A stretch of DNA of 64,000 nucleotides from a virus: IMG/VR virus record IMGVR_UViG_3300047322_001237, positions 62,001-126,000 of that record; one strand, written 5' to 3'. Both the position numbers and the translations under genes were made by a program. This document shows, piece after piece, positions 13,194 to 41,132 of the stretch. The notes below the pieces were generated by a model that did no database searches, was not told where the DNA came from, and worked only from the letters and a program-made list of their open reading frames with translations. The stretch's first letter is position 1; every line of letters starts with the position of its first letter.

Positions 13194-14375
13194 TCACGCT
13201 TTTGCTTGTTTATTTGCATTGATGGTCGCGGTTTTATACGCAAGCCATGCAACGCCTAATGCACCCAGAATGGCCGGCAATTGCTTGAGCCATTCAGAAG
13301 TTTCTTTCCTTCTCTCCTGACTCATTTTGTTATCCAGCATTTGCCGTTCGTAAAAAGCTTTCAAGCGCTCCAATTCCATCTTGGCCCGATACGCTTCATC
13401 GGCGTACGCGGCCTGCTGGCGTTCGACTTCACGCTGGAGCGCGGTCTTTTCAAGTTCCCATTCGTGCTGTGCTTTCTGGTGGGCGAGTTTCTGCTCGTTG
13501 AGTTCGTTGCGGGCGCGGATCAACCGCTCCTCTTGCGCGAGAAGCTCATGCTTACGCTTTGTTTCCCCATCACCACAATGTTCAGCTTCTGCGTAAGTTT
13601 TGTACAAATCGAGCAGCTCGTCGGCCTCTTGCAGCGTGTAACGCCGCCAGCCGACGGTGGAAGGTAGACGTGTGTTTTCGAACGGCTTGTTGCGAATTAC
13701 CCATACGCCCTCTTCACGCGATGGATCGTGCGTGCCTTGGATGCGGTAGATATTGCCATTTCGATTGATAAACCGGTCGCCAAACTGGCCAGTATTATCC
13801 ACGATCTTGATCGTTTCAGAGAATGCCTCCTCTTCATTACGTGTTGCATTTTCGTTTAATAGGGCCAGTGCGCGTCCAATTTCGGAGAAGGGATGTGGAC
13901 CTGATTCCATCCCGCGATAAAGCGAGATGACAACATCATGGTCGTGGTCGTATATCTCACCCCGATACCGTTCCAGATCGTCTAACGACACCGCACGCTC
14001 AGTTCTGAAGAGCAAATACTGTTCGTAAGCTGTCGGTTGATGCCGTGCGGCGATATCCCGCAGCTCTCTGATCAGTTTCGAGTCGTTCTCCCGAACGATC
14101 TTGATCCATGCGAAGAACTCACGATGCATGTCCTTATGGACCCGCCACTCCGTCTCGATGACGAAGCTCGCACGCTGCACATCGGGGATCGCGGGGAACT
14201 CCCACTGCATCCCGTTTCGCTCGAGCACGGTAACCGGTCTGGAAAGGAAGTTGTAATATCTGACCTTCCTCTCGAATAGCTCGTCCTTCCGATTGGCGCT
14301 TAAATGACCCAGGCCGACCTGACATAGTTCGACCTTCCCAAACAACGTGTCGGGAATGAAATGGTCAAGTGACAT
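13194..14375 (-). CDS. Coiled-coil protein with C-terminal membrane anchor, 393 aa
   Basis: Residues 1-270 form a soluble domain of unknown type. About 275-360 is a long, heptad-rich coiled coil (many Glu, Gln, Ala, Arg). Residues about 366-384 form a membrane helix followed by a short basic tail. A candidate early promoter lies 122 bp upstream of the start. An anchored coiled coil could organise phage compartments or host membrane, but this is speculation. Confidence 0.75.
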   Translation of the reverse strand: MSLDHFIPDTLFGKVELCQVGLGHLSANRKDELFERKVRYYNFLSRPVTVLERNGMQWEFPAIPDVQRASFVIETEWRVHKDMHREFFAWIKIVRENDSKLIRELRDIAARHQPTAYEQYLLFRTERAVSLDDLERYRGEIYDHDHDVVISLYRGMESGPHPFSEIGRALALLNENATRNEEEAFSETIKIVDNTGQFGDRFINRNGNIYRIQGTHDPSREEGVWVIRNKPFENTRLPSTVGWRRYTLQEADELLDLYKTYAEAEHCGDGETKRKHELLAQEERLIRARNELNEQKLAHQKAQHEWELEKTALQREVERQQAAYADEAYRAKMELERLKAFYERQMLDNKMSQERRKETSEWLKQLPAILGALGVAWLAYKTATINANKQAKA

Positions 14376-40189: not shown

Positions 40190-40211
40190 GTTGTATTCGC
40201 GCAAAAGGGCA

Positions 40212-40246
40212 TACAGGACAGGGGCGGGGTCCCCTGTCCCTTTTTT
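40212..40246. terminator. Bidirectional terminator at 3' end of RNA region
   Basis: Perfect 9-bp stem GGACAGGGG...CCCCTGTCC. Plus side has a six-T run, minus side TGTATGCCCTTTTG. It lies between the ncRNA candidate and the 164-aa gene. Confidence 0.7.
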
Positions 40247-40249
40247 GTA

Positions 40250-41115
40250 CGCCTGAAGACAGTGGAGTCAGATCACTTGGGTTTTGGTATGTCCGTTACG
40301 CACGCGCCCGGCGTCGACTGAGGTCAGAAAACCAGCGATACTGCGATCCGTCTTGCCTTCCAGTTGCTTCCTCGTGAGAAGAAACACTAAGCGGGCAAGA
40401 CCGGAGACTGAAGCTAAAGAACAATAACGGCAGTGCGCCAGAGTTCTTGATGCGGCGATTGTTGCTAATACAGCAATGGATTAGTGCGCTTCCCATAGAA
40501 GACTGGCGTGAAGCAGATCCGTCTATTTCGCGGGGAGACAACCGCTCTAATAGAGTTACCCTGGTTCCAGCGTCTCGTAGACGCTGACTCTTACGAAGGT
40601 GTGCAACCCATCGCACAGAACGCCAAGACTTCTACAGGCTGCGCACTGAGAGCATGGCTCGATCAGCTGCATGGGCGCACCGCACGGCGCCACACGCACA
40701 AGGCACAACTTCCCGGGCTACACCCAGGCTTACCGATACAGGAGTGAAGTGGGCTCCTGACAGTCCGCTTTCGCAAGCGTTTCCGTAACCGGTGTTTGAT
40801 TCGGTGAACTGTGATCCTGAGCAACTAAAACAGCCAGTGAACAAATGGGATTCCCGTCCCTATAGCGCATCATTTCGCTGTCTCACGACAGTGCACGTAG
40901 CGTCTCACGACGAGTACGGCTGAATGCGCAGATCACTAACAACTACCCGGTGCTTTAGCGGGGCACTGGTGCTACTCAGGATTTCGCAGGCGTTTCACCT
41001 GGACATGGTTCCGGCCATCAGCGTTGCGCCTATGCCTTCTCCGTGCTGCGGACTTGCACCGCTCATCAGACAGTATCTAAGACCATCGATCTACAAGACA
41101 GAGCGATCTGTCTCG
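40250..41115 (-). ncRNA. Candidate large structured noncoding RNA, about 0.87 kb
   Basis: A 940-bp gap without a credible gene in a genome otherwise packed with genes. Minus-strand hairpins include CGTC-GTGA-GACG (40901-40912) and CTGTC-GTGA-GACAG (40878-40891), two adjacent stems with the same GNRA tetraloop; CGCTT-GCGA-AAGCG (40766-40779), also GNRA; a 7-bp stem at 40568-40586; CCTGGG...CCCGGG (40712-40728); TTGCT...AGCAA (40462-40476); GACAGA...TCTGTC at the 5' edge (41097-41112); and a longer-range 8-bp stem (40350-40357 with 40394-40401). A terminator follows. Size and phage setting resemble the ROOL and GOLLD RNAs, but I cannot assign a class. Strand is inferred from the GNRA loops and flanking genes; ends are approximate. 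Confidence 0.6.
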
Positions 41116-41132
41116 TCGCATACGATAGGGGT

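Follow-up and report, generated by a model that had tools for sequence, protein, structure and literature searches.

A hammerhead-type ribozyme variant appears to head a large conserved RNA of phiKZ-like jumbo phages

An intergenic region of a phiKZ-like jumbo phage appears to encode a variant of the hammerhead-type ribozyme, set within a large phage RNA that is apparently undescribed. The window that we analyzed is a 64,000-nucleotide stretch of DNA (bases 62001–126000 of a 278,988-base virus record), and the structured RNA occupies positions 41119–40475 of its minus strand, about 650 nt. Sequence comparison makes it quite probable that a single phage transcript carries the ribozyme at its 5′ end, with a predicted cut after C40813 that would free or trim a structured 3′ RNA. 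The RNA is conserved and the letters of its core are invariant; stems I and III, hairpins A and B, and the arms of the 3′ domain are backed by covariation or by two independent predictions.

The RNA lies between gene boundaries at 40204 and 41133, and both flanking genes are on the minus strand. The initial annotation described positions 40250–41115 as free of genes, and we confirmed this: only short reading frames occur there, none of them conserved, and no conserved gene is found between the two boundaries. The minus strand, on which it described hairpins, folds far more stably than expected by chance, with -377.6 kcal/mol against -332.6 ± 8.1 kcal/mol for shuffled sequence (z = -5.6; none of 20 shuffles was as good); the plus strand of the gene-free stretch gave z = -3.2 against shuffled sequence. 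The tetraloop-capped stems noted there are present as well, two adjacent ones capped by GUGA and one by GCGA. The longer-range 8-bp pairing, by which the pairing of AUCCUGAG (40982–40975) with CUCAGGAU (40821–40814) was presumably meant, corresponds to stem III of the hammerhead-type core. Judged by the protein encoded at 1046–1891, the phage is a phiKZ-like jumbo phage, as had been proposed: matches to this protein were found in 270 phage records, PHIKZ139 of phiKZ being one of them, and its closest cultured match is in Burkholderia phage FLC9. We agree, too, that the window holds no recognizable tRNA. Elsewhere in the window, the minus-strand protein at 13194–14375 has distant matches (about 21–30% identity) in 16 jumbo phage records; in three of the relatives inspected (LucasX, pVa-21, and FLC6), its gene adjoins one that carries the annotation RNA polymerase beta subunit.

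A DNA search of phages and plasmids with the window RNA as the query returned no match, and relatives were found through patterns, synteny, and models. A search by the flanking proteins gave one homologue (L004). By way of a neighboring gene we reached G001, a phage contig of 323 kb in which a homologous RNA is present (nhmmer, 1e-21). The copies in G004, G005, and the FLC9-like contigs were revealed by patterns assembled from words in common. FLC9 itself was found by distant BLAST; in its genome a 507-base gap without annotation contains the RNA. With a first model (R1) we detected G014, G016, G032, and G048. Two compact copies were recognized by a T-loop pattern, one in a phage contig (L133) and the other in a contig binned as Thaumarchaeota (L137), and the same pattern found copies in Paraburkholderia sp. 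BCC1886 (L141) and Caballeronia arationis (L145). A covariance model built from 13 sequences recovered the window at 9.5e-20 and other members at values down to 4.8e-27, with one copy of the RNA per phage genome. A second model (R2) found FLC6 (1.8e-8), a lineage outside model building, and then FLC8 and SURPRISE13. The cultured Burkholderia phages FLC9, FLC6, FLC8, and SURPRISE13 all carry the RNA. With conservation in about 19 records and the covariation described below, the main proposal of the initial annotation, that this phiKZ-like jumbo phage encodes a large structured noncoding RNA, is supported.

In the model searches no copy was detected in phiKZ, PhiPA3, LucasX, Eowyn, PhiEaH1, or pVa-21, nor in the majority of the remaining phiKZ-like contigs searched, a group that includes many fragments. 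Its absence from phiKZ and PhiPA3 means that phages of this type can do without the RNA. We rejected pattern matches in genomes other than L137, L141, and L145, which were without stems or coding-like, as well as a weak model match in DT01 (0.008), located inside a CDS, and weak ones in G210 and G526 (about 1e-3).

Jumbo-phage-like DNA with the RNA occurs on contigs of Burkholderiaceae isolates (Paraburkholderia sp. BCC1886 and Caballeronia arationis). The Paraburkholderia contig is 286 kb long, and its core sequence is identical to that of G014. The presence of these two copies in Burkholderiaceae isolates suggests the host range of this phage group. The copy on the contig binned as Thaumarchaeota (L137:1245–1355) is a compact core; the same contig encodes a DUF5131 protein and may be a mobile element or misbinned. 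Neither this copy nor the compact one in L133, which lies upstream of a gene, has a recognizable 3′ domain.

Every copy shows the same order of elements: CUGANGA, hairpins, CGAAA, a helix running from A15.1 to U16.1, H17, and the complement of the bases that precede CUGANGA. On the minus strand of the window, the 5′ strand of stem I (ACUGU, 41070..41074) pairs with ACAGU at 40808..40812, whose assignment is backed by covariation and which would form the first bases of the predicted 3′ product. The putative catalytic strand C3-U4-G5-A6-U7-G8-A9 (CUGAUGA, 41063..41069) carries the hammerhead letters, and its counterpart C11.1-G12-A13-A14 (40983..40986) reads CGAA in all members. Stem III is formed by AUCCUGAG (40975..40982), which begins with A15.1, and CUCAGGAU (40814..40821), which ends with U16.1; the two strands covary, and the A15.1–U16.1 pair is invariant. 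H17 is C40813, and cleavage is predicted 3′ of this base from the letter match to hammerheads. The loop of stem III holds an insert (40822..40974) which, according to folding, contains several hairpins, including the two GUGA-capped stems. We at first discarded the hammerhead reading of CUGAUGAG, as the first hairpin is not immediately followed by GAAA, and returned to it when stems I and III became evident in G048 and the FLC9-like copies. We read the 5′ half of the RNA as an expanded type-I hammerhead core, enclosed by the covarying stems I and III and predicted to cleave.

An alignment of 16 distinct core sequences supports this reading. CUGANGA is found in 16/16, with U or A at N7 and no other variation, and so are CGAAA (G12-A13-A14 followed by A15.1) and U16.1; H17 is C, A, or U in all members and never G. 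Stem I, in contrast to these invariant letters, occurs in the 5′ variants ACUGU, GCUGU, GCUCU, GCUAU, UCCGU, UCCCG, and GGCUU, and the complement is correctly placed each time. In this stem 98.8% of cells are paired, with two-sided changes at all 5 positions, and in stem III 88.3% are paired, with two-sided changes at 7 of 8 pairs (12/13 for both stems together). Over the whole core, 94.6% of pairs hold and two-sided changes occur at 17 of 21 pairs. The alignment rows are joined segments, and the pair count is in part selected for, because pairing served to place the 3′ strands of these two stems. Two-sided changes fill 98 cells against 32.9 in shuffled alignments. In the test for covarying pairs among relatives that the initial annotation had called for, the covariation score was 0.770 against 0.198 ± 0.025 for shuffled alignments, none of 500 shuffles reached it, and sliding the structure by 1–3 bases lowered it to 0.09–0.20 (at most 0.204). 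Smaller alignments without FLC6 and SURPRISE13 scored 0.677 and 0.648.

When the placement was tested by shuffling single sequences, the result was strong (0–1 of 2000) for the window, Caballeronia, G005, FLC9, and G032, and below 3% for G004, G014, G008, G009, L024, G010, and L133. It was weak for G001 (7%), G048, L137, and G016 taken alone, the site in G016 aligning with the strong one in G005. FLC6 was found by the model and not by stem pairing; its stem I (GGCUU/AAGCC) and stem III (UACACAC/GUGUGUA) are perfect, and SURPRISE13 shows a compensatory change from U-A to C-G. For the window, the hammerhead-type fold (-94.8 kcal/mol) lies 0.6 kcal/mol from the unconstrained optimum (-95.4), with pair probabilities of 0.54–1.0 in stem III and 0.2–0.3 in stem I. 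The stem III insert measures 100–145 nt in subgroup 1, G005, G016, and G032, while a short loop is all that closes stem III in the FLC9-like, L133, L137, and G048 copies. In the FLC9-like copies L023 and L024, AGAGC occurs again close to the RNA 3′ end, and this additional AGAGC could pair with GCUCU in competition with the stem I strand.

In the usual hammerhead, A9 and G12 flank stem II, which begins with the 10.1–11.1 pair. By our reading of the alignment, the canonical stem II is absent from the phage RNA, and a multi-helix junction of three hairpins takes its place. Hairpin A (GCGG-UGCAAGU-CCGC, 41048..41062, minus strand), placed by pairing and loop fit, has a T-loop-like loop of 7 nt; it is 100% paired in the 16 sequences, with two-sided changes at 3 of 4 pairs. 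Its loops (UGCAAGU, UUCGAGU, UUCGAGG, UGAAAGU, UGGAAGU, and UUAAAGU) all match the T-loop motif UNNRA, and UUCGAGU is a common tRNA T-loop. Hairpin A2 (41002..41047, minus strand) varies in length and its sequence is not conserved; on inspection it forms a long hairpin in the FLC9-like, FLC6, and L137 copies. Hairpin B (CAGG-UGAAACG-CCUG, 40987..41001, minus strand), identified in the same way as hairpin A, carries the second T-loop-like loop. It is 96.9% paired, with two-sided changes at 2 pairs, and its loops match UNNRA except in FLC9, L133, and perhaps G048.

FLC6 and SURPRISE13 have U10.1 and C11.1, so that the usual G10.1–C11.1 pair is impossible. Position 10.1 is taken by hairpin A, which pairs it with its own 3′ strand; in these two phages the first pair of the hairpin reads U-A where the others have G-C, and C is retained at 11.1. 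The other 14 of the 16 sequences have G10.1 and C11.1, which are compatible with the usual pair. Since the defining feature of stem II is lacking, we call the RNA a hammerhead-type variant rather than a hammerhead. Adjacent T-loops are known to interlock in other RNAs, and by analogy hairpins A and B probably pack together, holding the core active.

Upstream of the core, a TATG motif at 41119..41122 (minus strand, within a conserved TATGCG) may mark the start of transcription, with G as +1. TATGCG stands 35–56 nt before C3 in 5/5 near relatives (the window, Caballeronia, G001, G004, and G014) and the motif is absent near the RNA in FLC9-like members. The late promoters of phiKZ consist of TATG with G as the start site (PMC4666361), which fits such a role. 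The sequence further predicts a 5′ hairpin ahead of the ribozyme (AGACAGA-UCGC-UCUGUCU, 41096..41113, minus strand); in Caballeronia a hairpin in the same place (GGCAGAC/GUCUGCU) differs from it at paired positions. In G005, the FLC9-like, and other copies, the core begins a few bases after the upstream stop codon.

Downstream, 14 members continue past the predicted cut with a hairpin, AAGUUGU, more hairpins, and the word GCAGCC, which together form a conserved 3′ domain of about 300–350 nt. RNAalifold, run separately on two subgroups, predicted the same two arms, one around AAGUUGU and the other from CGCAGCC to a GGAUGCG-like end. In the window, the first arm, a hairpin followed by AAGUUGU, lies at 40702..40734, and the long arm, CGCAGCCUG ... 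UAUGGGAAGCG, for which both subgroups show paired changes, at 40486..40644, both on the minus strand. In subgroup 1, 36 of 85 pairs in the domain show a change at both positions in one or more of the five sequences, and on inspection the sequences of G005, G016, and G032 fit the long arm. In G001 and G004 the RNA ends earlier, at a hairpin and U-run of its own before the next gene, and in FLC6-like phages the 3′ part is different or strongly diverged.

The conserved RNA is followed by a variable insert (40340..40474, minus strand), as BLAST blocks against the nearest relative end at 40475 and resume at 40339. In that relative, Caballeronia arationis, a GIY-YIG/NUMOD3, I-TevI-like homing-endonuclease gene recognized by Pfam (L145:2991–3743) replaces this segment, and the conserved RNA thus ends near 40475. 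The 0.9-kb extent given by the initial annotation has to be shortened to match: the structured RNA is real, but its conserved part does not reach 40250. The 3′ terminator assigned to it found no support. The hairpin at 40216..40239 has its T-run on the plus strand, and from its sequence we read it as a plus-strand terminator and not as the terminator of the minus-strand RNA. This hairpin is strong, is conserved in the Caballeronia contig, and faces the plus strand though the neighboring genes run on the minus.

All families of Rfam 15 were searched, among them the ROOL, GOLLD, HEARO, OLE, and group I/II intron models named as a check in the initial annotation, and there was no credible match in the window, G001, G004, G005, FLC9, or SURPRISE13, even at E<=10. 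Models of OLE, group I/II introns, and riboswitches gave no match either at gathering score or to E 10, and the hammerhead models had none at E<=10 in the window, G001, G005, FLC9, and L137. A twister-sister match on L137 (12.4 bits, E 8.9) was treated as chance. A cobalamin-riboswitch reading of GGUGCAAGUCC, to which no model matched, was rejected. A tRNA match was obtained upstream of the G005 copy only, at L009:2394–2475 (39.9 bits, E 8.5e-6), where ARAGORN makes no tRNA call. In the open-access literature we found no relevant paper joining hammerhead ribozymes with jumbo phages, and the form is described neither in Rfam 15 nor in that literature (most subscription papers lie outside this coverage). 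The alternative, raised in the initial annotation, of a new class is supported in the sense of a variant form of the hammerhead type, the ribozyme core having no place in that earlier description.

We propose that the transcript would begin near 41119 or read through from the upstream gene, and that the RNA would fold during synthesis, its 5′ half forming a type-I hammerhead-type ribozyme. The CUGAUGA and CGAA strands would make up the catalytic pocket, closed by stems I and III, with three hairpins in place of stem II, the first and last of them T-loop-like. From the match to the hammerhead reaction, the RNA is expected to cut itself between 40813 and 40812, yielding a 5′ product with the ribozyme at its end and a 3′ product that opens with stem I and includes the conserved 3′ structured domain. 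The likely purpose would be for the 3′ RNA to acquire a defined 5′ terminus and to be detached from the mRNA upstream. What we infer from the sequences is the cleavage itself, the contact between the T-loops, and the role of the product. An allosteric hammerhead, in which the paired T-loop hairpins sense a tRNA, a nucleobase, or a phage-stage signal and so switch cleavage, and with it the liberation of an RNA that serves the phage in regulation or as a structural element, is an unlikely extension of the proposal; if true, it would be a natural counterpart of engineered ribozyme switches with a sensor in stem II.

The ribozyme might instead be a cis-acting processing site that cuts polycistronic phage mRNA, trimming upstream 3′ ends or setting downstream 5′ ends, so that the 3′ domain would be a mere leader or terminator region of the next gene. 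We regard this as possible, if doubtful. The short distance between the preceding stop codon and the core in several copies, those of G005 and the FLC9-like contigs among them, would suit it, as would L133, whose core stands alone directly upstream of a gene with a ribosome-binding site. Hammerheads are known from bacteria and phages, and the bacterial ones flank genes, some near phage genes (PMC3088659). The covarying arms that the 3′ domain possesses in two clades argue against a mere leader, and so does its own terminator ahead of the next gene in G001 and G004.

Size, phage location, extensive structure, and the large inserts in stem III recall ROOL, GOLLD, and other large phage RNAs whose function is unknown (PMC12286853), and the tRNA-like match about 350 nt upstream of the G005 copy is of a kind commonly seen with them. 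A purely architectural RNA of this sort, a cage or scaffold in which the hammerhead-like junction serves as a fold alone and makes no cut, is nonetheless quite unlikely. Scaffolding alone does not explain why H17 is never G and why the catalytic bases are invariant while the stems around them vary freely, and the compact copies consist of little beyond the core. Moreover, neither ROOL (RF03087) nor the conserved 3′ region of GOLLD (RF02032) matched the RNA copies searched, the window, G005, and FLC9 among them; given this and an architecture of a hammerhead-type ribozyme with a 3′ domain, the suggestion in the initial annotation of a fit to these RNAs or of a diverged member does not hold. Chance hairpins in a decayed protein gene or intron remnant, a reading to which the homing-endonuclease gene at the 3′ end of the Caballeronia copy might lend itself, are hardly credible: the covariation refutes it in practice, the other copies that we examined preserve the RNA but have no endonuclease, and no conserved reading frame, split host gene, or splicing signal was found at the locus.

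Hammerheads are the best-studied small ribozymes, and a form with T-loop-like hairpins in place of stem II is absent from the resources that we searched. If the RNA cuts, it would represent another way of stabilizing the hammerhead core and would offer natural material for ribozyme switches. A conserved large RNA is also added to phiKZ-like jumbo phages. The prediction is a sharp one, with a single cut site per phage, known to the base, and since several carriers are cultured (FLC6, FLC8, FLC9, and SURPRISE13), activity and role are directly testable.

Among known systems, HEARO and intron-type elements share with the phage RNA an adjoining homing endonuclease, but here it is of the GIY-YIG/NUMOD3 type, accompanies one copy only, and is inserted 3′ of the RNA. 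ROOL and GOLLD are likewise large, structured, phage-encoded RNAs whose function is unknown, and one copy of our RNA lies near a tRNA-like sequence; the phage RNA matches them in neither sequence nor model and differs in its hammerhead-type core at the 5′ end and in its 3′ arms. With type I hammerheads (Rfam Hammerhead_1, Hammerhead_3, Hammerhead_II, HH_9, and HH_10; Perreault et al. 2011, PMC3088659) it shares the order stem I-CUGANGA-[II]-GAAA-stem III-UH-stem I, the A15.1–U16.1 pair, an H17 that is not G, and an open stem I. Unlike them, it has three hairpins for stem II, two of them T-loop-like, does not keep G10.1–C11.1, may carry an insert of 100–145 nt in stem III, heads a large conserved RNA, and has no Rfam match. 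In the non-circularly permuted hammerheads of type SGC/CSG (Eckert et al. 2023, PMC10085705), too, comparative analysis revealed a new arrangement of the hammerhead core. However, whereas those reorder the three blocks and create pseudoknots, the phage RNA keeps the type-I order and appears to have stem II rebuilt.
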